The position numbers and the translations under genes are program-made. 64,000 nt of DNA from Euryodendron excelsum (taxonomy: Eukaryota; Streptophyta; Magnoliopsida; Ericales; Pentaphylacaceae). Positions 4,126 to 39,410 of the stretch are shown here, piece after piece; within the stretch, counting starts at the first letter, position 1; the number at the start of each line of letters is the position of its first letter. Under the pieces are notes generated by a model, which was not told the origin of the DNA, ran no database searches, and was given only the letters and a program-made list of their open reading frames with translations. The DNA lies in contig CM065384.1 in the NCBI GenBank assembly GCA_033060915.1, forward strand, positions 13,827,001 through 13,891,000, written 5' to 3'.

Positions 4126-5282
4126 TCAAGATGATCTGGCACATTTTTTGAAAAAAATCTCTTCGAAACAGTAAGTCCCTTTAAACCTGTCGACCGGGAC
4201 GAAACCCCAAGTCCCCTAGATGGTAGAACGGTCCACCTTTGGCGCATGCTAGCCCGCCAATGCAGAAATGTCCATTTTGGCATGCCTTTCGAGAAAGTTG
4301 ATTCTCAGGCGCTAAGTCCCTTTAGCAGCTTCCGGAGATCAGGTAGTCTTGGAAATGATTGCGAACCGTCAGAGAAGTGGAAATACTCGCAAACATTGCA
4401 ACCGTTAGAATAGCAAAAATACTCGCAAACAAGTCGATATAGTGAATTGCCAACAAACCCCTGTATCACGTGACCACCGTCAGAGTGGCGGAAACACTCA
4501 AAACCTAGGTCAACACCAGTGCCTGCTAGCCCACTTCGATGAAAAATAACCAAACTGCCCCTAGGGCCATTTTTCGGTGTGTTTCTCGAGAACACATTTG
4601 AATCCTCAGAACGGTAAGTCTAACCTTCCAAGATTGTCTTAAAGGCAATTTGGCATGATTAGGTGCCTTCTAGGCAGTTTTGGGCCAATTCTGAGACTTT
4701 CCATTCAAGATGACCATTTTGCCCCTAGGCATTCGAATGCCCTAGGAACCACACCAGCCCTGGGTATCAAACCGGTATCCTCCCGAGAATACTTCTTATA
4801 GTGTTTTCAATCTTTTTTTATCTTTCTGGATCATTCCGAGTCAATTTCGGCAGACTCGATGTAAAATGATCATTTCGCGCTCGTGGGCCGATTGCCTATT
4901 CCAACCACACTGGCTCTAGGTATCAAACCGGCAGGCCTTTGGGAACATTCGGAATAATGTTTCCAAATCTCAAGCCTTTTTCCAGGACGTTCCGAGTCCA
5001 TCCCGGCAGCTTTTCAGCCCGGTTGACCATTTTGCCCCCAATGGCCTAGTTAACCCTTTTGACACATCCTATCCTCATTTTTCAAGTCAAATACCTCCGG
5101 GACACTGTTCTAAGTGTTCCTGCCCTTTTTCGGCCTCCCAGGCCAATCTCGGCGCCTTAAATCGTTCCCGGACTTTCCGGAGTTACTCCTAGTGAAGCCA
5201 GGCTAAAAATTGCATAGTAGTCACTAGTACAGGCGCCCAAATCTTCCAAAGATACGTTGCTTGCTGATCTTAAAACTTTCTT

Positions 5283-5345
5283 AACTGGCTGGCGCCACTC
5301 CTAGTGGCGCTAAGAGGAATTTTGCCTTGGCGCCATTGCAACAAG
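5283..5345. repeat. GGCGCC palindrome cluster upstream of TATA (LTR B)
   Basis: GGCGCCACTCCTAGTGGCGC is an inverted repeat, followed by TTGGCGCC at 5327-5334. The latter fits the E2F consensus TTSSCGSS. It lies 20-80 bases upstream of the TATA box. Equivalent clusters occur in every LTR of this family. Confidence 0.65.
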
Positions 5346-5365
5346 CGCCAGGTCTATCCCATCTC

Positions 5366-5373
5366 TATAAATA
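5366..5373 (+). promoter_or_regulatory. TATA box of LTR B
   Basis: TATAAATA in the context CTCTATAAATACAGAGCC, followed by a conserved block (AACGTGAAAGAGGTCCG, AAACTCAGTCTAAAA). That block is shared by all forward LTRs and probably marks the start of R. Confidence 0.7.
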
Positions 5374-5783
5374 CAGAGCCTCTTCCAACGTGAAAGAGGT
5401 CCGAAAACTCAGTCTAAAAAACCTAATTCTCGATATACAGAGTTCGTACACTTCCAAAACCCTAGCTTCTCTAGGTTTTCCAAACCCTAGCCACCATACA
5501 CAAACCCTAGTCTCCTATACACTCATACACACTCCCATATACTTATACACTAGCCTCCAACCCTCCATTGAAGACTTGGATTATTGTAACTCAAAGCTTT
5601 CGAAGACCAAGACAAAGCTCTCGAAGCTGAAGCGAAGACCGAAGAAAAAGCAAGAAAGCAAGGCGCTCAAGCTAAAGTGAAATAAACAAGACAAGGTAGG
5701 CTTTCTATTTAAATTTCCGCACTTCCCCCCTCTCTCTTCTCTCTCCTAACCCACTTGGGTTTTCTCTATTTTAATCCCCCATC

Positions 5784-5784
<1 letters not shown>

Positions 5785-5830
<46 letters not shown>
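5785..5830 (+). repeat. Poly-C tract, 46 bases
   Basis: An uninterrupted run of C sits where other LTR copies have CATCTTCTTCCCCTCC or about 16 C (23964-23979). It is a homopolymer expansion downstream of the TATA box. Confidence 0.85.
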
Positions 5831-5831
<1 letters not shown>

Positions 5832-6279
5832 CCTTTCTTTGCATGCTTGAAACAAGGGGACTCCCAGTCCATGTTTAGGATTAGACCATTGGAGGGTCAC
5901 CGTGTTGGGGGCTTTCTTTTAGTCTAACCAGAGACTACGTGGATTTGGCCCCCTTGATTATGTGGTGACGCCTTAACCCTGTATGTTCACGACCCCAAAT
6001 TTGCATTATGCATATCATAATTCTTGCATTCTTCCAAAAGTCGTTTCAAAATCGTTTTCAAACTTGTTTTCAAAATTGTATCAAAATCTTCTTTTTCAAA
6101 ACTTGTTTTCAAAATCACATTCCTAGGGTAATTCTAGCCTTTCCATGGCTAGGGTTGCTTTAGGAAAGTGCTATAGTTAAAGTGACCAATATGATCTATA
6201 TTTTCAAATCCTTGTTGTTTTCAAAACCACTTTCTTAAAGTGGTTATAGCCTTCTTATGGTTAGAATTACTTTAGGAAA

Positions 6280-7998: not shown

Positions 7999-8827
7999 AT
8001 GGCAGATGCGGGTGATAATGGTTCCAAGAGGAGACACCGCTCCCGGACGAATTTTGTCAGTGGTTCTAGTCGATCCAGGGGTAGCCGGCGATCTACTGGA
8101 CAGGCATCGTCTAGTCAGAGCAGACGGGGGAGTAGACCACCTGTCAACCCCTTTCCTCTGGTTGAATAGGCCTTTGAGGAGGAGATTGGTGTAGAGGAGG
8201 AGGTATCGGGTCTTGGTGATCAGGTGACTAGTTACGGGAGAGCCTCCATCCGGCACAGACAAACAGACGCTGAGTTAGGCGATTTGGAGGTACCAGACAT
8301 TCCACTGTTGGGAGATCTTGCCTATTATCCTAGTGTGTATTCTCGACAGCACCTGCCTCCTCCACACGTTCACACAGCCTTTAGAGAGGCCGTCCATCAA
8401 GTGTTTGCGACCATGCAGTGGGCCGCTCCATCCTACCATGCTTTCTTGGTTGAGATTGGGTTTGGGGCTTTCATAGAATTACAAGCTAACCGCCTGAACT
8501 GACATCTAGTGCTGGCACTTATCGAGAGGTGATTCGAAGAGACCAGGACTTTCATTTTGTGGGTTTTGAGTTGGGACCCACACCTTTGGATTGGACTATC
8601 ATCACGAGGCTTTCCTTCTTTGGTCGGTGGATCACCTTATAGGCAGTTAGTAGAGCTGACGCATGCATCTTACTGGACTTGCCCCCTCCTGAGCATTCTG
8701 CCTTCCCAGTCTCCTAGCTCAGTTGGGATGACAGTACTTTTCCTGTTGAGACACCACCTGCCCGGCAAGACATCATGAGGCGACGAATTGTTTTGTACAT
8801 CATCTTCAGCTGCTTCTGTAATAACAA
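7999..8827 (+). pseudogene. Antisense PMD protein gene of element A, first part (continues 26842-27849)
   Basis: The start MADAGDNG follows TTTTCAGG, a likely splice acceptor. Next comes a Ser/Arg-rich stretch (SGSSRSRGSRRSTGQ), then the conserved LGDLAYYPSVYSRQHLP and MQWAAPSYHAFLVEIGFGAF. The start of the plant mobile domain follows, seen better in the element C copy. Three stops (8167 TAG, 8500 TGA and a TGA replacing Trp near 8530) and a one-base loss near 8552 break the frame. The gene runs against the LTR and gag strand. At 8827 it is cut by element C, and its continuation resumes at 26842 in the middle of an Asn-rich segment. PMD proteins occur in plant nuclear genes, Mutator-like transposons and some Ty3/gypsy elements; the role here is not known. 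Confidence 0.78.
8823..8827. repeat. Target site duplication AACAA, left of element C
   Basis: AACAA directly precedes TGTAAGC and is repeated directly after the 3' LTR end at 26842-26846. Removing C and one copy rejoins the PMD reading frame region of element A. Confidence 0.9.
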
Positions 8828-8999
8828 TGTAAGCACTCCATTTTCGACCGCTCGATAGTCTATGGTCCGTCCAGACTTGTACTCAAGTCAGTATGGACGT
8901 ATTCCAATTGAAATCAACTCTCTAAGTCTAATCCCGTCTATCCATCACTTCGCAGGCCCATCAGGCCCTAATAAAGGCAAAATGACCAAAATGCCCTTA

Positions 9000-9240
9000 G
9001 GGGCATTATCCTTTCCAATTCCAATCTAGGCACGTCTTTCTGAAGATGGTAAGTCCCCTTTCTAATTTCACAGGCACTTCTTTCTGAAGACGGTAAGTCC
9101 CCTTTCCATATTCCATCAGGCACATCTTTCCGAAGACGGTAAGTCCCCTTTCCAAATTCCAATCCCTCTCTCGAGATTGTTGATTCCTCGAGACGGTAAA
9201 TCTATTCCATCAGGCACGTCTTTTCCAAGACGGTAAGTCC
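9000..9240 (+). repeat. Hairpin tandem array in U3 (element C 5' LTR)
   Basis: Four to five imperfect units of GGCACGTCTTTCCGAAGACGGTAAGTCCCC-type sequence, spaced about 40-60 bases. Each can fold as a CGTCTT/AAGACG hairpin and each contains GGTAAGT. Confidence 0.75.
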
Positions 9241-9429
9241 CCTTTTAACCTGCCGACAAGTACGAGACCCCAAGTCCCCTAGATGGTAGAACAGTCCACC
9301 TTTGGCACATGGTAGCCCGCCAATGCAGAAATGTCCGTTTTAGGCACGTCTTTCGAGAAAGTTGACTTCTCAGGCGCTAAGTCCCTTTAGTAGCTTCCCG
9401 AGATCAGGCAGTCTCAGGAATGATCGTAA

Positions 9430-9575
9430 ACCGTCAGAGTAGAGGAAATACTCGCAAACATCGCAACCGTCAAAGTAGCAGAAATACTTGCAAACAGGTC
9501 AATATAGGGAATTGCCAACAAACCCCTGTATCACGAGACCGCCGTCAGAGTGGTGGAAACACTAAAAACCTAGGT
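9430..9575 (+). repeat. CCGTCAGAGT repeat block in U3
   Basis: Three imperfect copies of CCGTCAGAGTAG(C)GGAAATACTCGC, spaced about 45-75 bases. Related blocks are seen at 4365-4505, 22415-22520 and 35215-35345, and in reverse at 3270-3410 and 41980-42110. Confidence 0.6.
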
Positions 9576-9769
9576 CAACACCGATGCCTGCTAGCCCACG
9601 TTGGTGAAAAATGACTAAACTGCCCTTTGGGCCTTTTTCGGCACGTTTCTTGAGAACACACATGAGTCCTCAGAATGGTAAGTCCAACTTTTTAAGATTG
9701 TCCTAAAAGCAATCCAGCATGATTAGGTGCCTTCTAGTCAATCTTGGGCCAGTTCTGAGACTTTTCGGT

Positions 9770-10260
9770 CAAGATGACCATTTTGCCCATAGGCATCTGA
9801 ACGCCCCGGGGACCACATCGGCCAGTTCCGAGACTTCTCATAGTATTCTCAACCTTCTATTATCTTTCCGGATCATTCTGAGTCAGTTCCGGTAAACCCA
9901 GTGCAAAATGAACGTTTTGCCCCTAATGGGCCGATCACCTTTTCTAGCCACACCAGCTCTGGGTATCAAACTAGTAATCTTTCGAGAATGCTTCTTATAG
10001 AATTCCCGACCTTCCTTTATCTTTCTGGATCATTCCGAGTTAGTTCCGGCAAACCCAGTGCAAAATGACCGTTTTGCCCTTGGTGGATCGGTCGCCTTTT
10101 CTAACCACACCGGCTCTGGGTATCAAACCGAAAACTTATGAGAACATTCTGAATAATGTTTCCAAATCTCTAGTCTTTTTTCAGGACATTTCGAGTCCGT
10201 CCCGGCAGCTGTTCGGCCTGATTGACCGTTTAGCCCCTAATAGCCCGGTCAATCCTTCCG
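9770..10260 (+). repeat. Higher-order ~130-base repeats, CATTTTGCCCC...GGTATCAAAC
   Basis: Three to four imperfect units each hold 'GACCATTTTGCCCCTA', 'CACACCGGCTCTGGGTATC' and a 'TTCTTATAG...TCATTCCGAGT' segment. The array also occurs at about 4700-5060, 22715-23250 and 35410-35900, and in reverse at about 2590-3130 and 41330-41830. It accounts for a large part of U3. Confidence 0.7.
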
Positions 10261-10492
10261 ACATATCTTATCCTCATTTTTCAAGTCAAATACTTCCGGG
10301 ATGCTATTCTAAGTGTTCTTGCCCTTTTCTGGCTCTCCGAGTAATTCCCGACCTCTTTAAATCATTCTCGGACTTTCCGGAGTCACTCCTAGTGAAACAA
10401 GGCTAAAAATTGCATAGTAATAACTAGTATAGGTGCCCAATTCTTCTCAAGATACGTTGTTTGCCAACTTTAAAACTTTCCTAACTGGCTAA

Positions 10493-10589
10493 CGCCACTA
10501 GTAGTGGCGCCAAACCAATATTTGGCCTGGCGCCACTCCTAGTGGCGCTAGAAGCATTTTTGGCCTAGCGCTACTGCAACAGGCGCCAA
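10493..10589. repeat. GGCGCC palindrome cluster upstream of TATA (element C 5' LTR)
   Basis: 'CGCCACTAGTAGTGGCGCC' forms an inverted repeat around CTAG, followed by 'GGCGCCACTCCTAGTGGCGC' and GGCGCCAA at 10506-10513 and 10582-10589. GGCGCCAA is the reverse of the E2F-like TTGGCGCC. Confidence 0.7.
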
Positions 10590-10603
10590 GTCATTCCCTT
10601 GTC

Positions 10604-10611
10604 TATAAATA
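10604..10611 (+). promoter_or_regulatory. TATA box of element C 5' LTR
   Basis: TATAAATA, 15 bases after GGCGCCAA and followed by the conserved GCGTGAAAGAGGTCCGCAAA block. Confidence 0.75.
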
Positions 10612-11499
10612 CAAAGTCTCCTCCAGCGTGAAAGAGGTCCGCAAACTCAGTCTAAAAACCCTATATTTCGATATACAGAGCTCGTAGCCTCTCTAAACCC
10701 TACCTTCTTTAGGTTTTCCAAACCCTAACCACCATACACAAACCCTAGCCTCCTATACACTCACATACACTTCTATACACTTATACACTAGCCTCCAAAG
10801 CCTCTTTTCAAGACTTAAAGAGCTGCAATCTGAAGTTTTGAAGATTGAAGACCAACTCTTGAAGATTAAAGTGAAGACCGAAGCAAGACAAGCAAAGAAA
10901 AGCGCACAAAGCTAAGCAAAATAAAGAAGACACAAGGTAGGCTTCTTATTTACGTTTACGCATCTTCCCCCCTCTCTTCTTCCTCTGAACCCACTTAGGT
11001 TTTCTTCTATTTTAATCCCCCATCTTCTTCCCCTCCTTCTTGCATGCTTGAAACAAGGGAGTCCCGGTCTACGTGTAGGATTAGACTATTGGAGAGTCAC
11101 CATATCAGTGGCTTTCTTTTAGCCTAACCGGAGACCACGTGGGTTTGGCCTCTCTTGATTATATGGTGAAACCTTTAACCTTGTATGTTAACGACCCTCT
11201 TTGCATTGTGCATATCATGATCTTGTATTCCTCTAAAGTTCGTTTTCAAACTCGTTTTCAAAGCTTGCATTAACATCGTTTTCAAAATTGCATTAAAATC
11301 TTCTTTTCCAAAACTTGTTTTCAAAAATCACAATCTTAGGGTGATTCTAGCCTTTCCATGGCTAGGGTTGCTTTAGGAAAGTGTTACATTTAAAGTGGCC
11401 AATATGGTCCATATTTTCAAAACCTTTGTTGTTTTCAAAGCCACTTTCTTAAAGTGGTTTTAGCCTTCTTATATTTCGAATCGCTTTAGGAAAGTGAGA

Positions 11500-13110
11500 C
11501 ATTTTTATACCTTCTAAAAACTCTCGTTTCAAAAGTCTCTATTTCTAAAATCTTCCTTTTGAACATACTTTCCTTAAACTCTCCTTTCCAAAGTTGTTTT
11601 CAAAAACTCTCGCCAAAAATCTATTTTTCAAAAACTCCTTTTCAACTCCTTTCCAAAATACTCTCTTCAAAATTCCTTTCCTAAAAATACTCCCTAGGTC
11701 TTCTTTCTAGAAAAACTCTTTCCAAAAACTCTTTTTAAAAACAATTTCTTCGAATTCACTTTCTACAGACACTCCCTAAATGCTTTCTTAAAAATTCGCT
11801 TTTCAAAAAACTCCTCACTAGGATTGCTTTCAAAACTCTCTATTTTCAAAATTCACTTTCTAAAAACTCCCCTTTAGGATTTCTTTCCAAAAATCCCTCT
11901 TTCTAAAAAACCCACTTTTCAAAATCTCTTTCCTTAGTGCCTAAGTTAAACCCTAGGGCCAATAATTAGGAAACCCTAATTTTCCTTCCCAAAAACATGA
12001 TTTCCAATCTCTTGTTTTGGCTCAAAACCTAGGTTTCCAAAACCTCTTGTTTTCAACATCAAAATTATACATATTTTCAAAACCTATTTTCTACATCAAA
12101 ACTATAATTTTTCCAAATCTAGGGTTTCTGAAACTTCCATTTCCAAATCCATGTCAAATCCAATCTTCCCTTTAGGAAACCAAACCCAATCTCCCATTTA
12201 GGAAATTAGATCCTATCCTCTGTTTTTGGAAACAAAATTAAAACTTCTCTCTTTAGAAACGAAATCCAATCCGTTGCTTTAGGAAATAGGAATCTCAATC
12301 CTTCCAAACTCAAATCTTTCCTAATCCAAATCCTTCCTAATCTTCTACTTTCCTAAACCTTAAGTTTCTTAAACTTTTAAATCTTTCCTTAAACATTAAG
12401 CTTCCAAACCTTTCTTGATTCAACCCTTTCCTAATGCTATCCCTTTCCAAATCTTAACTTTCCAAATCTAAGTTTTTCAAATTTTTCTTAAACTCAAACC
12501 TTTCCTAACTTCAAGTGTTTTCTAAAACTCAAACTTTCAAACATTTTCAAAATTCTAAACTTCCCTAAACTTCAAATCTTTCCAAATTCTAAACTTTCCA
12601 ATTTTCAAAACTTCCCTATTTCAAAACTTTCCAAATTCAAAACTTTCCTAAGTTGAACTTTTCCTATTTCAAAACTTTTTTTAAAACAAAACCTTTCCTA
12701 ATTTCAAAACCTCTCCTAATTTCAAAACTTTCTTAATTCAAAAACTTTCTTAAAATGAACCTTTCCTAATTTCAACACTTTTCTAAATTGAAACTTTTCT
12801 AAAATGAAACTTTCCAAAAATGAAACTTTCCTAATTTGAACCTTTCCTAATTCGAACCTTTCCTAAGTCCAATTTTTCCTAAACTTCCAATTCCAACATT
12901 CGAGTCAAGTTTTTCCTAAACCTCAAGTCTTTCCTAAATCCTATTTTCCTAAGTCTAGGTTTCTTAAATCTCAATTTTTCCAAAATAAATCCAAATCCCT
13001 CTTCCAATTTCTATCTTTCCAAATCAATTTCCTAATCCTTCAATTCCAATTTTCAATTTCCAATCTTCTAAGTTCAAATTAAACTCTTTTTCAAATCCAA
13101 CCTTCTATTT
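11500..13110 (+). repeat. Pyrimidine-skewed degenerate repeat tract (element C 5' LTR)
   Basis: A long run of imperfect TTTCCTAA/TTCAAAAC units with almost no G on this strand. No gene is supported; Phe/Ser/Lys-rich ORFs in it are composition artefacts. Confidence 0.75.
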
Positions 13111-13806
13111 TCTATCGGACTCTTATCCGAACTACAACTGACTAGATTCCTGCAAAAGGATACATAGGCAATCTTCATGGGTGCGGTCACAACATTTTTC
13201 AAACTTCTATTTCCACAATTTCTTTCAAATCTCTAATTCCACAACTTTCTTTAAGCTTCTATTCCCTAATCTGTTCCAAGTTTCTATTTCCAAATCTCTA
13301 TTTCTAATTTCCAAAACTTTCCAATTTCAATTCTATCTTTTCAAATCTCTTTCTAAAAACAAATCAATTTCTTTTCAAATTTATTTCCAAATCTATTCTC
13401 CAACTTTCTCTTTTTGCACTTTCATATTATGCATCATGTTAAATTTCTTTTTAAACATTTCTTGTCTAAATTGATAGGATTGAACATTTGTTAGTTGAAG
13501 ACTCTCATGGGTGAATCTAGGATAAATAGACTTGTAGGTACCGTAAGGGCGGAGTAGGGTGATGGCTTAGTGCGTGTTCCCTACACGTAACCAACCTCCG
13601 AACCTAGGATCACTTCTTTCGAAAGACCAAAATGGAGTTTATTTTCAAAAAGGGCTTAAATATTTTCTAAAGGTTGCCAAACAACCTGTTTTCTTAAAAA
13701 CCCTCTCTTGAGGTAGTATTTTCAAAATCGTTTTCAAAAACCCTAAGTGTAGTCTTCGGATTATGCTTAGTTTTTAGGTGACCTAACTCACCTTAATCAA
13801 GTTAGG

Positions 13807-13816
13807 TGGCGACTCC
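13807..13816 (+). repeat. PBS half-copy inside the LTR
   Basis: TGGCGACTCC equals the first ten bases of the primer-binding site at 13970. It sits about 150 bases before the LTR end. It is kept in LTR D (39244), F (42722), H (59244) and, in reverse, A (33272-33281). Confidence 0.7.
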
Positions 13817-13969
13817 AAACTTTTTCCAAAAGCCCTTTCTTCAAGTCAATTTTCAATTCAAACCTAGTAGCACTCATTCTTCTAGGAGGGTGAGTTTTAA
13901 CGAGAAAGTACAGTGTTTTTCCCGCTTGTGTGTGTATTCCTCGAGTGCAAAAAATTTGGGGGCGACAGC

Positions 13970-13988
13970 TGGCGACTCCACTGGGGAC
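13970..13988 (+). promoter_or_regulatory. Primer-binding site of element C
   Basis: TGGCGACTCCACTGGGGAC begins two bases after the LTR terminus. Its TGG start pairs with the CCA end of a tRNA. The sequence resembles the tRNA-Arg-type PBS described for Ogre elements, though I cannot confirm the tRNA from this window. Confidence 0.82.
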
Positions 13989-15539: not shown

Positions 15540-16725
15540 ATGACCAAAATGGAAGGCATGCTTTCTTCACTCTTATTACATGCAACCCATGAGCAAGAAG
15601 AATCCTCGCAGGCTCAGACCCATGTGGAATGAAAAAGGATGATGAAGGAAGTCCAAGACCACACCCATACCATTGCTCACCAACCACATCCCCAAGCCAT
15701 TTGCTGTATTCCGGCATCTCTCAGACCAACCTTTAACCACACCCCTAAATCCTATAATCTATCCTGTGATTACCAGTCTCATCCGCTTGGCCTTGACACC
15801 GAAAATTGTCCCACTTTGAAACATAAAGCCCGAAACCCCTTCAATTTCCAAACCACCGACCCCATATCCATCACACCGGAACTTGATCCTCGACCTGTCA
15901 GGTCATCTAGGGCACCTAGGCGAGTGAGACCAAAAGATTGAATTTTCACTAAACTCATTTGTACTCAAACCATAGCTTACTTTGATCTTCTCACCGCGGG
16001 ATATTTGAAACCTATACCCCCTCGACCTTGACCTAGCCCTCTGCCACCCTATTTTAACACAAAGGCGTACTGTGAGTACCATTCAGGCAGCCAAGGACAT
16101 GATACCGAAGAATGCTGGACCCTCAAGTATAAGATCCATGACTTGATAGATAACAACACTATTGGCTAACAATCAGCATCCTTCTACGAACGTCACAACA
16201 AATTCTTCACCAGACCCCACTGTCAATCCTATTACAAAACTTGGTAACAATAAGGTTTGGTTCGCTATATGCCAAGAGATATATTACTAGGATAGGGAGA
16301 AAATGGTATGCGAAGATATAGAACAGAGTCATACCCAGTTACGGTAAAACCCCGATAGAATGCCAGCCCCCAAAGATGAACTCATATATGAATCTGTGAA
16401 GAAGATTGACTAGGAGCTATCCAACCTCAGTAATAAGAATCCCCCATTGTGTACACTTGAGGAGTACCAAGCCACGGTGGGATGCTAGAGCAGAAAACCC
16501 TAGGCTCGAGCTATCAAGTTGGAAGAAGGTGAGTCGCCCGAATGGTTTGTTAGGGAAACTACGAAGCAAACAAATGAAGGCAAGACGGTCAAGAAAGCTG
16601 ACAATTATATCATCGCCGCTAACTCACTTTGAACTCCTGGAGAAGCATCTACTTGTCCTGCCTTGGTTGAAGATCATAGCCGTGGATGGAATGCTGATAT
16701 GGGCATCATCCCAAAGCCCTATTGA
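15540..16725 (+). pseudogene. gag: gag remnant of element C (Gag C-terminal part)
   Basis: The sense-strand reading starts MTKMEGMLSS, comparable to RTKMDEMFKL near the start of element A's Gag. In the same frame at 16071-16115 lies CEYHSGSQGHDTEEC followed by WTLKYKIHDLID. This is the C-x2-H-x5-H-x4-C nucleocapsid knuckle and basic tail typical of plant Tat-type Gag. A second, degraded knuckle is seen at 15765-15809 (CDYQSHPLGLDTENC). The end, after frame changes, is GIIPKPY-stop at 16725, matching GIIPKPN-stop in element A. The central capsid-like part (about 350 residues in A) is missing. Gag would package the element RNA; this copy is dead, with several stops and frameshifts. Confidence 0.75.
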
Positions 16726-18624: not shown

Positions 18625-20463
18625 TCAAAGGTGAAAGTCATTGTCATTTGGATCGAAATCCCCGAAACCCAGCATCGAAGGAGGCAGATAACTACTCGAA
18701 GCACCAGCATCCTGCAGAGAAGATAGAATCGAAATCAGCCACATAAAAAAAAAGGAACTAAACAACAACAGAGCAAAAAGAAGGGGAGAAAAGATGACAT
18801 ACCCCCCCACCTCCCATCTGGGCTATCCGAGCCGTCAAGGAAGCCATATCTGCCTGATACTGGTCTCGCTCTGTCTGGTATCAATCTCTTTGATCCCTCA
18901 CAGCTATAAACTCAGTCTGGGGAACACATCCTCCTGCTCGGCGCCACAAGTCAACCACCTCCTAGCCCACAGCATACCCGCCGACTACTACCTCAAATCG
19001 GGTGAAGGCACCGACAGAATGAGCCCCAAAGTGCGCTGCATAACTTGTGTCCGGAGGAAGCAGGAACTCCACACTCGGCTACCGCTCCTAATAGGGGATA
19101 GGCACTCCCGCCACTAAGGCCCCAAACATATACTCTGGTGGAGCTCCTCCTGACCGGAACTCATCATAAAACTGCCGCCAATGTCGCTCTCTGAGATAGG
19201 ACTCCTAAGTATCATCATTGAGAAAAGCAGCCCTCGACAGGGACAACAGAACCAAGTACTGAACTCTCTCGTAATGAACTGATCCAATAAAAGGCTACCA
19301 AGTCACATCTCTTGCCTCAATCAGCTCCAAGTTAGCCCGAAGCGTCACAAAATCAGTAATCTCTGATCACTGAGCTACCCGATCACGAGCCCACCTCAAT
19401 GCATGTGGATAAAGGTTGTCCTCAACAACTGTAGGGCGACACACAGGCAAGTACTCATAGCTCCACCAGATAAGAAAGAGCCAGAAACTGGTCATACTGC
19501 CCCAACAGGAAGAAGTCCGGACTCGCATCGATTGAAGGAAGCAGCCAAAGGAGAAAGAACCCCAATCTAGCTTCGATAAAGCCCCAAGATCAGCTACTAT
19601 ACTCACCAAGCGAAATGGCACAAGTAACTTGTTGTTGTTGCAGAAGCAGCTAAAGATGATGTACAAAACAAGTCGCCGTCTCATGATGTCTCGCCTAGCA
19701 GGCAATGGCTTAGCAGCAAAGGTACAGTCATCCTAACTAAGCCAAGGGACTGGGAAGGCAGAACGCTCAAGAGGAGGCAAGTCCAGCAGAATGCATGCCT
19801 CATCTCTACTGACTGACTGTAGAGTGATTCGCCGGCCAACAAAGGAAAGCCCTGTGATGACCGCCCAATCCAAGGGAGTGGGACCTAACTCAAAGCCGAC
19901 ATAGTGGAAGGTCTTGGTCTTCCCGAACCACCTCTCAACAAGTGCTAGTACCAAATGCCGATTCAGGCAGTTAGCCTGTAATCCCATGAAGGCTCCAAAT
20001 CCAATCTCAGCCAAGAAGGTACGATATGATGGGGCAGCCCGCTGCATAGTCACAAAGACCTAATGAACGGCCCCTCTAAAAGTTGTATGTGCCTGCGGAG
20101 CGGGAAGATGCTGTCTAGAGTATACACTGGGGTGATAAGCAAGATCCCCGAGTGGTGGAATATATGATACCTGCAGATCTCCCAAGTCTGCCTGTGCCTG
20201 GAGGAGGCTCTCCCATAGCCAGTGACCTGGTCGCCCAGACCCGGTAGCTCCTCATCTCCACTGATCTCCTCTGTAAAGGCCTGCTCAATCGGAGGAAAAA
20301 GGTCGACAGGTGGCCTACTCCCCCGACCACTCTGACTAGATACTGCCTGCCTTGTAGACCGTCGGCTACTCCTAGACCGACTGGAACCACTGGTGGAATC
20401 TGTCCGAGCCGCCTTCCCCGAGTGGCGTCTCCTCTCAGAACCATCATCACCCGCGTCTGCCAT
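18625..20463 (-). pseudogene. Antisense PMD protein gene of element C
   Basis: Runs opposite to the LTRs and gag. MADAGDDGSERRRHSG is followed by an SR-rich stretch (SGSSRSRSSRRSTRQ), a linker, then LGDLAYHPSVYSRQHLP. The plant mobile domain core has LVERWFGKTKTFHYVGFE, GPTPLDWAVITGLSFVGRR, then LDWGSFSFGCFLQSM and FWLFLIWWSYEYLPVCRP. These match the PMD pattern of ERW..ET.TFH, D...LTGL..G, and a WGS...L.....W.YE..P tail. A Gln/Arg-rich probable coiled coil follows, then a 91-base putative intron (18802-18712, GTATGT...TGCAG) and a last exon ending LGFGDFDPNDNDFHL. One frameshift near 20180 and several stops (PWLS-stop, VAQ-stop, VTW-stop) disable it. The upstream CTTTTCAG suggests a 5' intron. 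PMD proteins are linked to transposons and silencing in plants; the function here is inferred only. Confidence 0.8.
18712..18802 (-). other. Putative 91-base intron in antisense PMD gene
   Basis: On the minus strand GGGG|GTATGTCATC opens it and TTCTCTGCAG|GATGC closes it, with a pyrimidine-rich interior. The equivalent in element A is 27675-27762 (GTATGTTG ... TTTGGAG). Flanking exons are conserved while the interior is not coding. Confidence 0.55.
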
Positions 20464-21796
20464 CCTGAAAAGGTAAGCTAAGGTAATAGGTGTTAATATA
20501 CCATACATACAGATAAATAATAACATAATAAAGTAAAACAAAATAAACAACAAACAATAAAAAGCATATAATAATAAAAAGAATTCAAATGATAAGTCAA
20601 AATAAATTTTCTACACATTTCAATTTTCCAACTTCAAAGCCAAATCTCCAGGGTTTTCTATCTTTTTCCTTCAAAAAGATTTCAATCTAACTCTTTCCCT
20701 AAATTTCTAAAAATTTCAGCGAGTTATGTTTAAAAGTGGCCCCTACAACACCCACAACATTAAAACAAAACACAAACCGTGCACTTCACAATGTTACAAT
20801 CGCATAACCTCAACACCCGCGCACACTTTTTGAACTTTCGAAATTTTCAAACCACGTGTTTTATTTTTCCAATAAATCAATGGTTTTCAAAGTTATCCAA
20901 AAATTTCTTAAAATCATATTAAATATTTTCTAAAAATATTCTTACATTTTTCAAAATTTCAAACTCTAAAAATTCCATCAATTTCTTCAGTTTTTCAATT
21001 TTCCTAATTTTCAAAGTATTTTTCTATTTTTTAAAAAATAAAAAAATCACCAAGTTTTCAAAAAATCACGAAACTTCACATGGTTGTTCAACACATTTTT
21101 CTAAGGCACATTGCATAAAAATTTAGCCAGAAAACCCAATGCCTAAACCTGTAGGAACAAACTCCCAATTCCTGCAGAAAACCCTCTTCACATAATCACG
21201 TAAATCGCTCAAATTGAATCAAACAGGCACCAAAAGGCAAAAACAACATCACCATAGTGTTCAAAACATATCAAAATATCAATTTCTACTATTCACATGA
21301 TTCAAACGAAATTTTACATATCAAAATCAACAAAATTTTAAAAACTCACTTTTTGGAGTTCTCCGGCAAAATATTCTCTTCCGGTGACTTTTCTAGCGAC
21401 GTGGTCTCCCTCCGGCAATCACTCGTGGTCTCCAAGAGGTTCTCCTTCAATGTCCAAGTCAGTTTCCCCGTAATGTCTCTCGGATTTGCGAAAATCTTCC
21501 AAAATCCAGCAACTATTCGAACTAGAATTTTTCTGGTTTTAATTTCAAACCTGGCGCCACTAGAAAAGGCACCAAGCCTTCTCTGCCAAAGGCGCTACTC
21601 CTAGTGGTGCCAGTTGCCAATCCTGGGTAGCTTTGTCCATTTTCCCGCCATAACTCATTTTCGAAGGCCTTTTAGGCCCAATATCCATTTTTGAACCCCT
21701 GTTGTCGAAAAATTCCCAAAGTCCATCCCTCTGACTGCCTCGCGGTCAACATGAGACTCTTACTCTATCGTTTTCTACCTTTGACAAGCAAAGACA
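20464..21796 (-). other. Upstream region of antisense PMD gene, element C
   Basis: About 1.3 kb between the PMD start codon and the PPT. Reading on the minus strand it has GGCGCC palindromes (21552-21613, CTGGCGCCACTAG and GGCGCTACTCCTAGTGG), then AT-rich sequence, then a splice-acceptor-like CTTACCTTTTCAG. It probably contains the gene's promoter, 5' UTR and an intron. Confidence 0.5.
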
Positions 21797-21808
21797 GAGA
21801 AAGAAGGG
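21797..21808 (+). promoter_or_regulatory. Polypurine tract of element C
   Basis: GAGAAAGAAGGG, followed by CAGC and the 3' LTR start TGTAAACACCCC. Position and composition fit the plus-strand primer. Element E has AGAAAAAGAGGGG in the same place on the minus strand (44662-44650). Confidence 0.8.
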
Positions 21809-21812
21809 CAGC

Positions 21813-24800
21813 TGTAAACACCCCATTTTTTACTGCTCAGCAGTCTACGGTCCGTCCAGACTTGTACTCAAATCAGTATGGACGTATTCCAATTGAAATC
21901 AACTCTCTAAGTGTAATCTCGTCTATCCATCGCTTCGCGGGCCCACTAGACCCAAACAGAGGCAAAATGACCAAAATGCCCTTAAGGGCATTATCCTATT
22001 TAATTTTAAACTAGGCACGTCTTTCCAAAGACGGTAAGTCCCCTTTCTAATTTCACAAGCGCATCTTTCTGAAGACGGTAAGTCCCCTTTCCATATTCCA
22101 TCAGGCACGTCTTTCCGAAGATGGTAAGTCCCCTTTCCACATTTCAATCCCTCTCTCGAGATAGTTGATTCCTCAAGACAGTAAATCTATTCCATCAGGC
22201 ACGTCTTTCCGAAGATGATAAGTCCCCTTTTAACATGTCGACCGAGACGAGACCCAAGTCTCCTAGATGGTAGAACGGTCCACCTTTGGTACCTGCTAGC
22301 CCGCCAATGCAGAAATGTCCGTTTCAGGCATGCCTTTCGAGAAAGTTGACTTCTCAGGCGCTAAGTCCCTTTAGCAGCTTCCCGAGATCAGGTAATCTCA
22401 GTAATGATCGCGAACCGTCAGAGTAGCGAAAATACTCGCAAACAGGTCGATATAGGGAATTTCCAACAAACCCCTGTATCACGAGACCGCCGTCAGAGTG
22501 GCGGAAACACTAAAAACCCAGGTCAACACTAGTGCCTGCTAGCCCACTTTAGTGAAAAATAACCAAACTACCCCTAGGGCCTTTTTCGGCACGTTTCTCG
22601 AGAACACACCTGAGTCCTCAGAACGGTAAGTCTAACTTTCTAAGATTGTCCTAAAAGCAATCCGGCATGATTAGGTACCTTCTAGTCAGTTTTGGGCCAG
22701 TTCCGTGACTTTCCGGTCAAGATGATCATTTTGCCTCTAGGCATCCGAACGCCCCGAGGACCACATCAGCTCTGGGTATCAAACCGGTAACCTCCCGAAA
22801 ATGCTTCTTATAGTGTTCTCAACCTTCTATTATCTTTCCGAATCATTTTGAGTCAGTTCTGGTAAACCCGGTACAAAATGACCCTTTTGCCCCTACTGGG
22901 CCAATCACCTTTTCTAGCCACACCGGCTCTAGGTATCAAACCGGTAATCTCCCGAGAATGCTTCTTATAGCATTCCTGACCTTTTTTTATCTTTTCGGAT
23001 CATTCCGAGTTAATTCTGGCAAACCCGGTGTAAAATGATCGTTTTGCCCCTAGTGGGCCAGTCACCTTTTCCAAACACACCAGCTGTGGGTATCAAACCG
23101 GCAACTTTTGGGAACATTCTGAATAATGGTTCCAAATCTCTAGTCTTTTTTCGAGACATTTCGAGTCTGTCCCGGCAGCTGTTCGGCCTGATTGACCGCT
23201 TTGCCCCTAATAGCCCGATCAATCCTTCCGACACATCTTATCCTCATTTTCCAAGTCAAATACTTCCGGGATGCTATTCTAAGTGTTCCTGCCCTTTTCC
23301 GGCCCTCCGAGTCATTCCCAACCTCTTCAAATCATTCCCGGACTTTTTGGAGTAACTCCTAGTGAAGCAAGGCTAAAAATTGCATGATAGTCACTAGTAT
23401 AGGCGCCCAAATCTTCTCAAGATACGTTGCTTACTAACCTTAAAATATTCCTAACTGGCTAGTGCCACTAATAGTGGTGCCAGAAGCATTTTTGGCTTAG
23501 CGCCACTGCAAGAGGCGCCAGGTCATTCCCTAGTCTATAAATACAGAGCCTCCTCCAGCGAGAAAGAGGTCCGCAAACTCAGTCTAAAAACCCTATATTT
23601 CGATATACAGAGCTCGTAGCCTCTCTAAACCCTAGTTTCTCTAGGTTTTCCAAACCCTAGCCACCATACACAAACCCTAGCCTCCTATACACTCACATAC
23701 ACTTCTATACACTTATACACTAGCCTCCAAAGCCTCTTTTAAAGACTTAAAAAGCTGCAATCTGAAGTTTTGAAGATTAAAGACCAACTCTTGAAGATTA
23801 AAGTGAAGACCGAAGCAAGACAAGCAAATAAAAGCACGCAAAGCTAAGCAAAATAAAGAAGACACAAGGTAGGCTTCTTATTTACATTTACGCATCTTCC
23901 CCCCTCTCTTCTTCCTCTGAACCCACTCGGGTTTTTTTCTATTTTAATACCCCATCTTCTTCCCCCCCCCCCCCCCCCGCCCTTCTTGCATGCTTGAAAC
24001 AAGGGAGTTCCCAGTCCATGTGTAGGATTAGACTATTGGAGAGTCACTTTGTTGGTGGCTTTCTTTTAGTCTAATCGAAGACCACGTGGGTTCGGCCTCT
24101 CTTGATTATGTGGTGAAGCCTTTAACCTTGTATGTTCACGACCCTCTTTGCATTGTGCATATCATGATCTTGTATTCCTCTAAAGTTCGTTTCCAAACTC
24201 GTTTTCAAAGCTTGCATTAACATCGTTTTCAAAATTGCATCAATCTCTTCTTTTCCAAAACTTATTTTCAAAATCACAATCCTAGGGTGATTTTAGCCTT
24301 TCCATGGCCAGGGTTGCTTTAGGAAAGTGTTACATTTAAAGTGGCCAATATGGTCCATATTTTCAAAACCTTTGTTGTTTTCAAAGCCACTTTCTTAAAG
24401 TGGTTTTAGCCTTCTTATGGTTAGAATCGCTTTAGGAAAGTGAGACATTTTTACACCTTCCAAAAACTCTCTTTTCAAAAGTCTCTCTTTCTAAAATCCT
24501 CCTTTTTAACATACTTTCCTTAAACTCTCCTTTCCAAAGTTGTTTTCAAAAACTCCCTCCAAAAATCTATTTTTCAAAAACTCCTTTTCAACTCCTTTCC
24601 AAAATACTCTCTTCAAAATTCCTTTCCTAAAAACACTCCTTAGGTCTTCTTCCTAGAAAAACTCTTTCCAAGAACTCTTTTTAAAAACATCTTCTTCGAA
24701 TTCACTTTCTAAAGACACTCCCTAAATGCTTTCTTAAAAATTCGCTTTCCAAAAAACTCCTCACTAGGATTGCTTTCCAAAAACTCTCTATTTTCAAAAT

Positions 24801-26841
24801 TCACTTTCTAAAAACTCCTCTTTAGGATTTCCTTCCAAAAATCCCTCTTTCCAAAAAACTCACTTTCCAAAATCTCTTTCCTTAGAGCCTAAGTTAAACC
24901 CTAGGGCCAATAATTAGGAAACCCTAATTTTCCTTCCCAAAAACATGATTTCCAATCTCTTATTTTGGCCTCAAAACCTAGGCTTCCAAAACCTCTTGTT
25001 TTCTACATCAAAACTATACATATTTTCAAAACCTATTTTTTACATCAAAACTATAATCTTCTCAAATCTAGGGTTTCTAAAACTTCCCTTTCCAAATCCA
25101 TGTCAAATCCAATCTTTCTTTTAGGAAACCAAACCCAATCTCCCCTTTAGGAAACTAGATCCTATCCTCCGTTTTTGGAAACAAAATCAAAACTCCTCTC
25201 TTTAGAAACAAAATCCAATCCCTTGATTTAGGAATTAGCTATCTCAATCCTTCCAAACCCAAATCTTTCCTAATCCAAATCCTTTCTAATCTCCTACTTT
25301 CCTAAACCTTAAGTTTCTTAAACTTTTAAATCTTTCCTTAAACATTAAGCTTCTAAATCTTTCTTGATTCAACCCTTTCCTAATTCTATCCCTTTCCAAA
25401 TCTAAGTTTTTCAAATCTTTCTTAAACTCAAACCTTTCCTAACTTCAAGTGTTTTCTAAAACTCAAACTTTCAAGCATTTTCTAAATTCTAAACTTCCCT
25501 AAACTTCAAATCTTTCCAAATCTAAAACTTTCCAACTTTCAAAACTTCCCTATTTCAAAACTTTCCTAAGTTGAACTTTTCTTATTTCAAAACTTTTCTT
25601 AAAACGAAACCTTTCCTAATTTCAAAACCTCTCCTAATTTCAAAACTTTCCTAATTTGAAAACTTTCCTAATTTCAACAATTTTCTAAATTGAAACTTTT
25701 CTAAAATGAAACTTTCCAAAAATGAACCTTTCCTAATTTGAACCTTTCCTAAGTCCAATCTTTCCTAAACTTCCATTTCCAACATTCGAGTCAAATTTTT
25801 CCTAAACCTCGAGTTTTTCCTAAATCCTATTTTCCTATGTCTAAGTTTCCTAAATCTCAATTTTTCCAAAACAACTTCAAATCCCTATTCCAATTTCTAT
25901 CTTTCCAAATCAATTTCCTAATCCTTCAATTCCAATTTCCAATTTCCAATCTTCTGAGTTCAAATCAAACTCTTTTTCGAATCCAACCTTCTATTTTCTA
26001 TCGGACTCTTGTCCGAACTACGACTGACCTGATTCCTCCAAAAGGATACGTAGGCAACCTTCATGGGTGCGGTCACAACATTTTTCAAACTTCTATTTTC
26101 ACAATTTCTTTCAAATCTCCAATTCCACAACTTTCTTCAAGCTTCTATTCCCTAATCTGTTCCAAGTTTCTATTTTCAAATCTCTATTTCCAATTTTCAA
26201 AACTTTCCAATTTCAATTCTATCTTTTCAAATCTCTTTCTAAAACAAATCAATTTCTTTTCAAATTTATTTCCAAATCTATTCTCCAACTTTCTTTTCTT
26301 GCACTTGCATATCATGCATCATGTTAAATTTCTTTTTAAACATTTCTTTTCTAAAGTGGATAGGATTGAACATTTGTTAGTTGAACACTCTCATGGGTGA
26401 ATCTAGGGTAAATAGACATGTAGGTACCGTAAGGGTGGGGTAGGGTGATGGCTTAGTGCGTGTTCCCTACACGTAACCAACCTCCGAACCTAGGATCATT
26501 GCTTTCGAAAGACCAAAATGGAGCTTATTTTCAAAAAGGGCTTAAACGTTTTCTAAAGGTTGCCAAACAACCTGTTTTCTTAAAAACCCTCTCTTGAGGT
26601 AGTATTTTCAAAAACCCTAAGTGTAGTCTTCGGATTATGCTTAGTTTTTAGGTGACCTAACTCACCTTAATCAAGTTAGGTTGCGACTCCAAACTTTTTC
26701 CAAAAGCCCTTTCTTCAAGTCAATTTTCAATTCAAACCTAGTCGCACTCATTCTTCTAGAAGGGTCAATTCTAACGAGAGAGTACAGTATTTTTCCCACT
26801 TGTGTGTGTATTCCTCAAGTGCAAAAAATCTGGGCGCAACA
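21813..26841 (+). mobile_element. Element C 3' LTR
   Basis: Starts TGTAAACACCCC and ends GGGCGCAACA. It has the same block order as the 5' LTR: hairpin array 22010-22225, 'GGTATCAAACCGGTAA' repeats 22750-23110, palindromes 23460-23520, TATA 23536, pyrimidine tract 24450-25990, GGATACGTAGGCAACC at 26044. It is 111 bases shorter than the 5' LTR. Confidence 0.92.
23536..23543 (+). promoter_or_regulatory. TATA box of element C 3' LTR
   Basis: TATAAATA in AGTCTATAAATACAGAGCC, about 20 bases after AGAGGCGCCAGG. Confidence 0.72.
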
Positions 26842-26846
26842 AACAA
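26842..26846. repeat. Target site duplication AACAA, right of element C
   Basis: Matches 8823-8827 exactly and marks a standard 5-bp LTR-element insertion. Confidence 0.9.
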
Positions 26847-27849
26847 CAAGTCACTTGTGTTATTTTGGTTGGTGAGTATAGTGGCTGATCTTGGGGCTTT
26901 GTCTAAGCTAGATTAGTGGTCCTTCTCATTCGGTTGCTTCCTATGATCGATATGGGTCTGGACCTCCTTTCGTTGGGGCAACATGACTGATTTTTTGCCT
27001 TTCCTTGTTTGGTGGAGCTACTGGTACCTGCTTGTTCGTTGCCTTATAGTTGTCGAGGATGACCTTTATCCTCGTGCTTTGAGGTGAGCTCGTGATCGGG
27101 TAGCCCAGCAATCGGAGATCACTGACTTCGTGACACTAGGGCGAACTTAGAGCTCATTGAGGTGAGGGACGTGACTTGGCAGCCCTTCATTGGATCAGTT
27201 CATCATGAGATGGTGCGCTATTTGGTCCCGTTGTCTCTATCGAGGGCTTCTTTTCTCAGTGATGATTCTTGGGAGTCCTACTTAGGAGACTGGCACTAGC
27301 GGCAGTTTCATGAGGACATCCGGTCAGCAGGAGATCCATCGGAGTATATGTTTAGAGCTTTGGTGGAGGGAGTTTCCATTCCCTATCAAGAGCGCTAGCC
27401 GGGTGCCAGGTTCTTGCTTCCTCTGGAGACAAACTATGCTACACACTTTGGAGCTCATGTTGTCGGTGCCTTCACTTGGTTTGAGGTAGTAGTCGGCGGA
27501 TACGTTGTGGGCCAGGAGGTGGTCGACTTATGGCGCCGTGCCAGGGGATATGTGCCCCAGGCTGAGTTTACAGCTGTAAGGGACTAGAGGGATCGATACC
27601 AGACGGAGTGAGATTAGTACCAGGCACAGGTAGCTTCCTTGACAGCTCGGTTAGCCCAGATAGGAGGTTGCGGGGTATGTTGTCTTTTCCCTTCTTCTTT
27701 TCGCTCTGTTGTTGTTTAGTTATTCCTTCATGTGGCTAATTTCAGTTCTATCTTCTTTGGAGGATGATGGTGCTTTTACTAGTTATCCACCTCCTCCGAA
27801 TCTAGGTTTCAGAGATTTCAATCCTGAGGATATTGACTTTGATCTTTGA
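26842..27849 (+). pseudogene. Antisense PMD protein gene of element A, second part
   Basis: Continues the gene cut at 8827: NNKSLVLFWLVSIVADLGALSKLD, then a PMD tail (SFSFGCFL, MTDFLPFLVWWSYWYLLV) and SEITDFVT. Next are FEVVVGGYVVGQEVVDLWRR, a Gln/Arg-rich segment with likely coiled-coil heptads (RYQTE, YQAQVASLTARLAQIGG), a putative intron (27675-27762), and a last exon ending LGFRDFNPEDIDFDL with a stop at 27847. Several stops are present, most explained by C-to-T or G-to-A changes relative to the element C copy. It reads against gag of the same element. Confidence 0.78.
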
Positions 27850-29683: not shown

Positions 29684-31700
29684 CTAATTGGGTTTTGGGA
29701 TGATACCCACATCTTCGACACTCCATCCATGGTCACGGCTTCCAGCCAAGGTAAGGCAGGCGAAAGCCTCTTCTAGAGCTCCTGGTATGTCGGCAGTGAT
29801 GGTGTAGTTGGTAGCTTCATTGACTTTCTTTTTGTTCTTTGCAGCAGGTTCTTCTGTAAATAGGATGGCTAGTTCACCTCCTTCTAACTCGAACGGCTCT
29901 GTCTGTGCTCCTGACTCTTCTAGGCCCCAACCTATGTCTTCATAGTTGTACTCGGTCACAGACCAAGGGTTTTCCAATAAGTGACGTTCAGCTGCTGCAT
30001 ACTTTGGATGTAGAAACTCAGCACCCCATCCGTCCATAGCCATGTTTTCAACAAGCTTTTCTTCCGGAAACATTGGCTCCTCAACTGGCCAGTCAGAAGC
30101 ATCAGGTACCCCATTAGGGTTATAGAGATAAATCGAGCATAATGGGAAGTCCTCCTCCCAGTCATCCTCTCCATCGGTCTCCCAATCCACCTCATAATCT
30201 TCAGGCATGGGCCCATCAACCTTTTCCTCGCCGTCCATTTCTACTAGTATCATATTGACGGTGTGGTTCGGCAGAGGGTTGGTGGTCACATTGGGGGTTG
30301 GAGTAGGATTCACCAGTTGAAGATCAATAGTCTTATTGTCGATTAAGTCTTGGATCTTATGCTCGAGAGAGAAGCAGCTTTCAGTGTCGTGCCCTTAGCC
30401 ACCCAAATGGTATTCACAAGTGAGGGCGGCATTGAAGGTTTTGGGGTAGAGGGCTCGGCAATGGGCGAGTAGGTATGGGCTTTAGGATATTATTCTTCAG
30501 CAGGTTATGGTAGGCCTCAGTTTGGGTGCAGGCTAAGGTGTCAAAGGTATGGAGGCATCAGGCAGGTCTATTAAAGTTAGGTCGTGCCTCAGCAAGGCCA
30601 TAGTTAGGGGTTGGAATAGGCATGGTTAAGATAGGTAAGGGTAAGATAGGGTGTGACTGTAGTGGTGGACGGTATTAGGGTGGTTGGCCAGGCAAAATGG
30701 CAGACACCTCGCTTTCCTTCTTGATTATTCCCCTTGTAGTAGCCACATTCATGGCTATGTTGGCAGAACTTTCACCAATCTTTGCGTAGGGGTCTGTAAT
30801 CCTCCCTGTCTTAAGACCGTTTTCTATCATCTCCCCTTGCATGATGAGTTCAGAGAAGCTTTTCCCTATGCTTGTGCAGAGCTTCTCATAGAGTATACCT
30901 TGAAAGGTATGTAGGAACAATTGCACGTACTCCTTTTCTTCCAATAGGGGATTGACTTGTGCAGCGGCTTCTCTCCATCTCAAGGCATAGTTCTTGAAAC
31001 TTTCTTTTTCACCCTTACTCATAGACATCAGATATCATTGGTCAGAGGTGAGGTCGATATTGTGGCGGTACTAAGCTTTGAACGCGTTGACCAGCTCAAT
31101 CCAAGTCGTGATCTTCCTTAGGTCCAGACAGGCAAACCATTGTAGGTCAGATCCAGTGAGGTTGTGTTGGAATAACTGCATGAGGAGTTTCGGATCGTTG
31201 CCATAACCGCTTAGTGCCCTTGCATGGAGACAAAGATGAGTAATAGGGTTACCAATGTCATCATACTCCTAGAAATCAGGCATTTTGAACTTAGCAGGTC
31301 TCAGATGGTCAGGAAAGAAACAGGGCTTGTCATAGGAAGTAAACCCATAAGTCTCATGGTAATGGAGACTTTACAGTGAATCCTCTAGCCCTTGGATTTT
31401 CAAACCGATAGGGTCTAGGGGAGTCCTCTTTACGGCAAGTGAAAGCAATATGGTTTCCTCCTCTTCAGTGTTGATCCCTTTGGTGTCTTCCTTGTTCCTC
31501 CCAGCATTGTCAAATTGAAGCACAATCCTCGGGTTAACGGGTTCAGGGTCCTTGGACGAAGTCATGGATGACAATGGGACTGTAACTGTATCTTTCACGG
31601 TAATAGTTTGAATGAGTTTGAACATTTCATCCATCTTGGTCCTTATTTCGTTGACCTCTTCTCGAGAGACTTAGGACGGTTCCTCGGGGTTGGCAGCCAT
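29684..31700 (-). pseudogene. gag: gag of element A (Gag, decayed)
   Basis: Starts MAANPEEPS at 31700. The capsid-like region reads LMQLFQHNLTGSDLQWFACL, then MSMSKGEKESFKNYALRWRE, AAAQVNPLLEEKEYVQLFLH and SELIMQGEMIENGLKTGRI. This is the plant retrotransposon Gag family (LTG..L.W, E.F..Y..RWRE.AAQV). The nucleocapsid knuckle is at 30418-30374 (C-EY-H, one in-frame stop, GH-DTES-C), followed by FSLEHKIQDLID. The tail is acidic, with GWGAEFLHPKYAAAERHLLE, and ends GIIPKPN-stop at 29684. There is about one frameshift (between 30675 and 30418) and about seven stops. No protease follows. It would have formed the RNA-packaging particle. Confidence 0.82.
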
Positions 31701-33099: not shown

Positions 33100-33118
33100 A
33101 TCCCCAGTGGAGTACCCA
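33100..33118 (-). promoter_or_regulatory. Primer-binding site of element A
   Basis: On the minus strand, TGGGTACTCCACTGGGGAT starts two bases after the LTR terminus GCGACA. It differs from element C's PBS at two or three positions. Confidence 0.75.
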
Positions 33119-34638: not shown

Positions 34639-34894
34639 TGTAAGCACCCCATTTTTGACTGCTTGGTAGTCTACACTCCGTCCAAACTTGTGTTCAAGTC
34701 ATTGTGGGCATATTCCAACCGAAACCAACTTTCTAAGTCCAAATCTCGTCTGTTCATCGCTTCGCAGGCCCGCTAGGCCCAAATAGAGGCAAAATAACCA
34801 AAATGCCCTTAGGGGCATTGTTCTCTCCAATTCCAACTCCAACCCCTCTCTCGAGACAGTTGATTCCTTGAGACAGTAAATCTACTCCAATCAG

Positions 34895-35205
34895 GCACGT
34901 CTTTTCGAAGACAGTAAGTCCCCTTTCCAATCCCTCTCTCGGGACAGTTTATTCCTCAAGACGATTCCAAATCAGGCACATGTTTTCGGAGATGATAAGA
35001 CCCCTTTCCAATCCCTCTCTCGAGACAGTTTATTCCTTGAGATGGTCCCAAATCAGGCACGTCTTTTCGGAGACGATAAGACCCCTTTCCAATCTCTCTC
35101 TCGAGACAGTTTATTCCTCGAGACGATCCCAAATCAGGCACGTCTTTTCGAAAACGATAAGACTCCTATCCAATCCCTCTCTCAAGACAGTTTATTCCTC
35201 GAGAC
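34895..35205 (+). repeat. Expanded hairpin array in solo LTR D
   Basis: Five units of about 62-65 bases: CCAATCCCTCTCTCGAGACA, GTTTATTCCTCGAGA, and 'CAGGCACGTCTTTTCGGAGA'. This unit adds the TCTCGAGA segment to the shorter unit seen in other LTRs. It gives chance ORFs with 21-residue repeats on both strands. Confidence 0.8.
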
Positions 35206-39405: not shown

Positions 39406-39410
39406 AGTGA
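39406..39410. repeat. Target site duplication AGTGA, right of solo LTR D
   Basis: Identical to 34634-34638. Confidence 0.9.

Follow-up and report, generated by a model that had tools for sequence, protein, structure and literature searches.

Three LTR retrotransposons (C, A and E) in one stretch of the Euryodendron excelsum genome (contig CM065384.1 of assembly GCA_033060915.1, positions 13,827,001 to 13,891,000; these 64,000 nucleotides as a whole are called the window) carry a plant mobile domain (PMD) gene on the strand opposite to their LTRs and gag remains, on the 3′ side and adjoining the 3′ LTR. Purifying selection acted on this antisense PMD frame, and the gene is carried in a multicopy layout which has no space for pol between gag and PMD.

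Results

Architecture of the three elements

Element C has a 5′ LTR at 8828-13967 (+; 5140 bp, first bases TGTAAGCAC) and a 3′ LTR at 21813-26841 (+; 5029 bp), 89.5% identical to each other; a PBS (TGGCGACTCCACTGGGGA) at 13970-13987 (+), matching with 0 mismatches where the chance expectation at up to 3 mismatches is 0.05; a PPT at 21790-21812 (+), to which a similar stretch is found in 10 of 12 sampled genomic copies; and a TSD of AACAA (5 bp). Ty3/gypsy elements of the Tat and Ogre kind have very long LTRs, of up to about 5 kb, and a TSD of 4-5 bp, and C agrees with them in both. As a multicopy element with LTRs, PBS, PPT and TSD, in which no pol was found, it is by definition a non-autonomous LTR element. 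At the rate of 1.3e-8 applied in PMC6123737, the LTR divergence (K80 0.076) corresponds to about 2.9 million years. Both C LTRs contain 157-bp tandem repeats (9834-10128 and 22760-23105).

Element C was inserted into the PMD gene of element A, which is older and minus-oriented, with a PBS at 33101-33118 (−; 2 mismatches) and a broken gag, recognised in fragments, at 29687-31670 (−), where PF03732 matches 31074-31268 with E=0.0014, under that profile's cut-off. Element E is also minus-oriented, as read from its two LTR starts at 63638 and 44645 (−); a PBS search in E found none. Gag is substantial in A alone, and in C and E only its C-terminal part was found: in C as a remnant at 16095-16719 (+), matched by tblastn with an A gag fragment over 16095-16163 (70%) and 16180-16719 (28%), while tblastn with the remaining three A gag fragments gave no match in C; and in E at 53084-53371 (−), 43% identical to an A gag fragment by tblastn (E 1e-14). 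The first-pass annotation, which had placed the PMD gene between gag and the PPT in all three elements, was right about the antisense strand, the 3′ side and the coordinates, whereas its gag is a substantial gene only in A.

Other repeats lie in and around these elements. A solo LTR of the same superfamily (34639-39407) is nested in the 5′ LTR of A, and a truncated, plus-oriented LTR (3751-6279), forming an inverted pair with 1528-3742, lies at the expected start of the A 3′ LTR. The insertion in the E PMD gene (47189-49893) includes a tandem array of 3 x 85 bp (48069-48325) and a CT run (49367-49464). At the right edge of the window, 63692-63993 (+) encodes the gag capsid part of another element, 60-61% identical to that of A.

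Structure and identity of the PMD gene

The whole C gene spans 20463-18625 (−) and has two exons and about 585 codons. Exon 1 (18803-20463, −), with one frameshift and 9 in-frame stops, encodes an SR-rich N-terminus, the PMD and a tail; alignment and splice-site counts point to an intron of 91 nt (18712-18802, −; GTATGT...CTGCAG), and translation and alignment to an exon 2 of 28 codons plus stop (18625-18711, −). In A, the first part of the gene (7999-8827, +) is cut off by the C insertion from the second (26842-27849, +), which has a putative intron of 88 nt at 27675-27762, in the same position as in C, followed by exon 2 at 27763-27849. The E gene is likewise divided by an insertion, into 46671-47188 (+) and 49894 to about 51090 (+); its second part is identified by a PMD match (3.3e-4, on 49895-50176) and by its omega, and no such intron was seen in E. 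The gene had been described as one of roughly 600 codons; its 3′ part in C and A is an intron followed by a 28-codon exon 2 rather than a single open frame. The copies in C, A and E are all disrupted by stops or frameshifts.

The antisense intron, typically 88 nt long (91 in C), precedes the 28-codon final exon, and across 25 copies of the C-type gene its GT is kept in 23, its AG in 23 and the full GTATGT in 21. Its splicing requires a transcript of the antisense strand, as RNA made in the sense direction contains the reverse complement.

Assignment of the gene to the PMD family, made at first from the letters of the sequence, agreed with the profile search: with X at its stops, the C gene matches PF10536 at 69.9 bits (cut-off 34.9; 2.9e-19) over profile positions 6-285. 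When the gene was taken as ten stop-free pieces, three of them matched PMD (two consecutive ones from C, 2.8e-8 and 4.4e-4, and one from E, 3.3e-4), each below the cut-off, and the remaining seven, both of A's included, gave no PMD match; the A gene is linked to the C gene through DNA similarity and reading frame. PF04195 (TRP28) was not matched in the antisense gene by the Pfam scan, which returned PMD, and we therefore rejected identity with Retand, whose antisense gene is TRP28. The SR-rich N-terminus noted at first pass is visible in the translations. A coiled-coil C-terminus had also been suggested, with which a C-terminal helix in a poor structural model would be weakly consistent; the AlphaFold model of P0003 (see below) has a pLDDT of 36 and is useless as a structure, and a PDB sequence search returned nothing notable.

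Searching public proteins gave a single relative of the window gene, P0003, with 52% identity over 397 aligned columns including the tail, and two further searches added few. In a tree of 11 rows, which contained no labelled PMD-A reference, the window C gene, its genomic copy L031, P0003 and P0004 group together (100/100) apart from the 7 other PMD rows, and the branch between window-type PMD and those rows is at least 1.84 changes per column. Eighteen rows had been prepared; the seven dropped had crops of fewer than 80 residues (four genic PMDs of this genome, P0007, L036 and L047, the last two probably short through out-of-frame reading, with 38 and 41 stops). Two tree rows, L009 and L018, bear a MULE label, which is provisional.

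A shared TATA box before the antisense ATG was considered and rejected: TATAWAW upstream of the ATG on the PMD strand is absent from 10 of 12 sampled flanks and from C and A, and in the two flanks and E that have it the distances differ.

Other PMD genes of the genome

Nine other PMD pieces of this genome are 24-31% identical to the window gene in matches of at least 60 residues, and the PMD types brought up by the first genome search are far from it. In two of the PMD loci (L010 and L021) the PMD gene lies downstream of a MULE transposase ORF (PF03108, PF10551), on the same strand, and the ORF sizes of L011-L013 resemble these; MULE-borne PMD has been reported for grasses and Amborella (Ikeda et al. 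2017, PMC5418596). One of the genic PMD proteins here shares 70% identity with a Rhododendron protein over one stretch of 315 columns and 59% over another of 408.

Copies in the genome and their decay

DNA searches gave 6288 first-look candidates for the C gene and 2287 for the E gene. At least 40 scored copies of each, the window's own included, were found in the genome, the others being 84-88% identical to the C gene and 79-85% to the E gene. In 10 of 12 sampled copies a PPT and an LTR start are present on the opposite strand, some 1.3 kb upstream of the PMD ATG; one of the two exceptions has an LTR start on the PMD strand and the other none within 1.8 kb, and two of the ten have an additional LTR start on the PMD strand. 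The first-pass annotation had held the gene to be an inherited component and not a chance insertion, and this is strongly supported by the occurrence of the same gene on the same strand at the same place in three elements, by purifying selection in the antisense frame (see below) and by the position of PPT and LTR start on the other strand in those ten copies. Conversely a chance insertion, or a pseudogene captured once, is rejected by the copy numbers, the PPT/LTR layout and omega.

All 25 copies of the C-type gene (L029-L052 and window C) are broken, each having 2-12 in-frame stops in exon 1, and 16 of the 25 show no frameshift relative to L031. Of 176 stops in total, 76 are TAG at sites whose commonest codon is CAG, and a further 51 are TAG or TGA replacing TGG, or TGA replacing CGA; we infer that this pattern is the mark of cytosine deamination, and hence of past methylation. 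Copies of the related P0003 type, reached by protein search of the genome, numbered 105 when scored (69-76% identity), and 4 of these are free of stops across the 390 residues matched, with open frames of 519-641 aa. Lack of a PMD match, or of intact or conserved antisense ORFs in other copies, would have spoken against the first-pass annotation; a PMD match was obtained, and open relatives exist in the P0003 type. In the PMD tree of the 25 copies, C-type and other copies interleave, which is what recombination between subfamilies, or template switching, would give.

Absence of pol

Pfam found no pol domain in 20 window fragments outside the PMD gene, these fragments covering only part of the internal regions. 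Of 23 scored copies, that of the window among them, 9 match the C internal region end to end (one of the nine in two pieces), and a tenth copy matches in three pieces with a gap. Among scored A-type copies, 16 of 25 (again including the window's own) have a collinear gag side and PMD side no more than 399 bp apart, and the other 9 have no PMD-side piece reaching the end of the query. A pol region needs about 3 kb. These end-to-end C copies and the closeness of the gag and PMD sides in A-type copies therefore leave no space in which a pol could lie between gag and PMD.

Beside one of the open P0003-type copies we found a gag C-terminus on the strand opposite to PMD, 53% identical to that of A over 101 columns, and 2.2-2.4 kb from the PMD match, 1.1 kb of the interval being unread.

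Selection on the antisense frame

Between the second part of A and C, omega in the PMD frame is 0.172 (0.11-0.26; 239 codons); it is 0.121 (0.07-0.21; 156 codons) between the first part of A and C, and 0.073 (0.06-0.22; 345 codons, with dS saturated) between the second part of E and C. In all three pairs the antisense PMD frame has the lowest omega of any frame, and in two control stretches beyond the PMD gene omega is 0.41-1.08 across the six frames. The sole other low frame is the mirrored sense frame (0.29, 0.17 and 0.35); a sense-strand ORF was rejected as the source of the codon signal, since in the mirrored frame omega is higher and stops are more numerous (20 against 12, 8 against 6 and 29 against 13 in the three pairs). 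In a six-frame tblastn of the window, all 7 matches of PMD queries are antisense to C or E.

Codon positions were compared in the 25 C-type gene copies (24 from the genome and window C), counting a variant as shared when present in at least 3 copies. Shared variants fall on codon positions 1/2/3 as 126/87/219 (p=1.3e-14) and singletons as 189/177/216 (p=0.13); when exon 1 is ended at its splice site the figures are 137/91/229 (p=8e-15) and 196/188/231 (p=0.08), and exon 2 on its own has no clear codon bias (shared 8/6/11). That shared variants favour position 3 and singletons hardly do indicates that selection preserved the protein during the spread of the elements and that near-neutral decay came later. 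Singletons do show an excess at position 3 when the 9 C-type copies are taken alone (159/131/198, p=0.0009), as also among 7 other copies (126/109/167, p=0.001), so they are not purely neutral; such a bias would be expected if small samples score some inherited variants as singletons. Part of the selection on PMD may be earlier than the loss of pol.

Discussion

We tentatively favour, as a possibility that we would stop short of calling probable, an explanation in which these pol-less Ogre/Tat-like elements carry a two-exon antisense accessory PMD gene whose product is an anti-silencing protein favouring the copies that carry it. Lacking pol, such elements must take pol in trans. Pol II would transcribe the PMD gene from an antisense promoter of its own (somewhere in the 1.3 kb upstream of the ATG, or else within the 3′ LTR), and the transcript would be spliced and translated into a nuclear protein. 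At the weakest step, this protein would act on the chromatin or transcription of carrier copies, competing with host silencing complexes of the PMD/PP7L type, so that a copy keeping PMD would be transcribed more. A chromatin or silencing role, as the first-pass annotation had also imagined, is suggested by what MAIN and MAIL1, which have a silencing role with PP7L as partner (PMC5418596, PMC7156037), do in Arabidopsis, and the anti-silencing step, drawn from this distant homology, stays conditional. A benefit of PMD to its own copy would account for its retention where pol, and most of gag in C and E, were lost. A larger claim, that these elements are a long-lived pol-less lineage, parasitic on other retrotransposons, whose sole selected gene is a spliced antisense PMD which is homologous to MAIN/MAIL1 and blocks host PMD-dependent silencing for its own copy, seems to us improbable as a whole.

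Alternatively the PMD protein could serve the replication cycle directly, for example in nuclear entry of the pre-integration complex or in the choice of insertion site, as discussed for antisense ORFs by Vicient and Casacuberta (PMC7264820). Purifying selection and retention fit this equally well, and the SR-rich N-terminus might contact nucleic acid or contain an NLS; however, non-autonomous copies would be expected to lose any function that can be supplied in trans, like those of pol and gag, and PMD stayed, which makes a replication role rather unlikely in our judgement. It could also be that the antisense transcript, rather than a protein, matters, by forming dsRNA with the genomic RNA and so tuning or triggering siRNA silencing. 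Such a role has been suggested for antisense transcription (PMC7264820), tea has 175 PHAS loci at PMD genes (PMC10673657) and the CAG to TAG stops (76/176) bear the deamination mark described above; but a pure RNA function predicts neither constraint by codon position nor omega of 0.07-0.17, and we consider it very unlikely.

Or PMD may have been functional only in pol-bearing ancestors, from which the pol-less copies inherited it while recombining with autonomous ones; its constraint would then say nothing about the pol-less elements themselves. The interleaving of C-type and other copies in the PMD tree is as template switching would produce, yet the distance from gag to PMD is too short for pol in A, C, E and one P0003-type element (the spacing for E and for the P0003 type being that of one copy each), and a shared pol-less ancestor is a simpler source of this closeness in all four than four separate losses; we regard such a relic as unlikely. 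Anti-silencing by the PMD protein is favoured over these alternatives because the part that was retained could benefit its own copy, whereas pol can be borrowed.

Whether retrotransposon PMD is functional and whether host silencers descend from it are treated as open questions in print (PMC5418596, which describes the ancestry as fully open, and PMC6317226). Selection at the codon level on an antisense, intron-bearing PMD gene in pol-less elements is a sign that the element gains from the protein, and pol-less PMD carriers have few other genes to confound a functional test.

Comparison with known systems

Ikeda et al. 2017 (PMC5418596) report that Gypsy elements alone code for PMD-A1 and A2, without deciding whether element or gene came first, and Neumann et al. 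2019 (PMC6317226) report PMD in 57% of Ogre elements, distinguish reverse extra ORFs at the 3′ end and ask if extra ORFs have any function. PMD is the commonest atypical domain of Gypsy elements according to PMC9289625, which gives tRNA-Arg as the Ogre primer. Antisense ORFs, which the first-pass annotation had mentioned as extra ORFs of Tat-lineage elements, are indeed published for LTR elements, and have been reviewed by Vicient and Casacuberta (PMC7264820); the window PMD gene belongs to the 3′ antisense class (eORF-3′R / aORF-3R). With PMD in Gypsy and Ogre elements and antisense extra ORFs both in print, the kind of gene that we describe is already known.

The window elements are like the Gypsy elements with PMD-A (PMC5418596) and the Ogre elements with PMD ORFs (PMC6317226) in having, as apparently Gypsy-type elements, very long LTRs and a PMD-coding extra ORF, and differ from their descriptions there, supplementary tables aside, in having no space for pol, in the restriction of gag to its C-terminal part in C and E, and in the antisense intron. 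Like Grande, RIRE2 and Retand (PMC7264820, PMC11963269), they have an antisense gene placed after the coding region and ahead of the 3′ LTR, which most copies retain; however, most domain-bearing antisense ORFs of Retand are TRP28 (PF04195), which Vicient (PMC11963269) has linked to Retand, and those of the window are PMD. MULE-borne PMD (2006, cited in PMC5418596) resembles the window gene in that a PMD is carried on a mobile element. It differs in that the transposase ORFs of L010 and L021 share the strand of the PMD gene.

In having LTRs, PBS and PPT, with gag also in A, and no pol, the window elements are like TR-GAG and LARD elements, among which we know of none that retains an accessory gene under selection. 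Nor, supplementary files aside, did the titles and abstract openings of the papers listed describe an antisense PMD gene under selection in elements that lack pol. What looks new is the carrier: multicopy elements in which gag and PMD lie too close together to admit a pol, gag itself being cut down to its C-terminal part in C and E. To retain such a gene after losing the rest is unusual.
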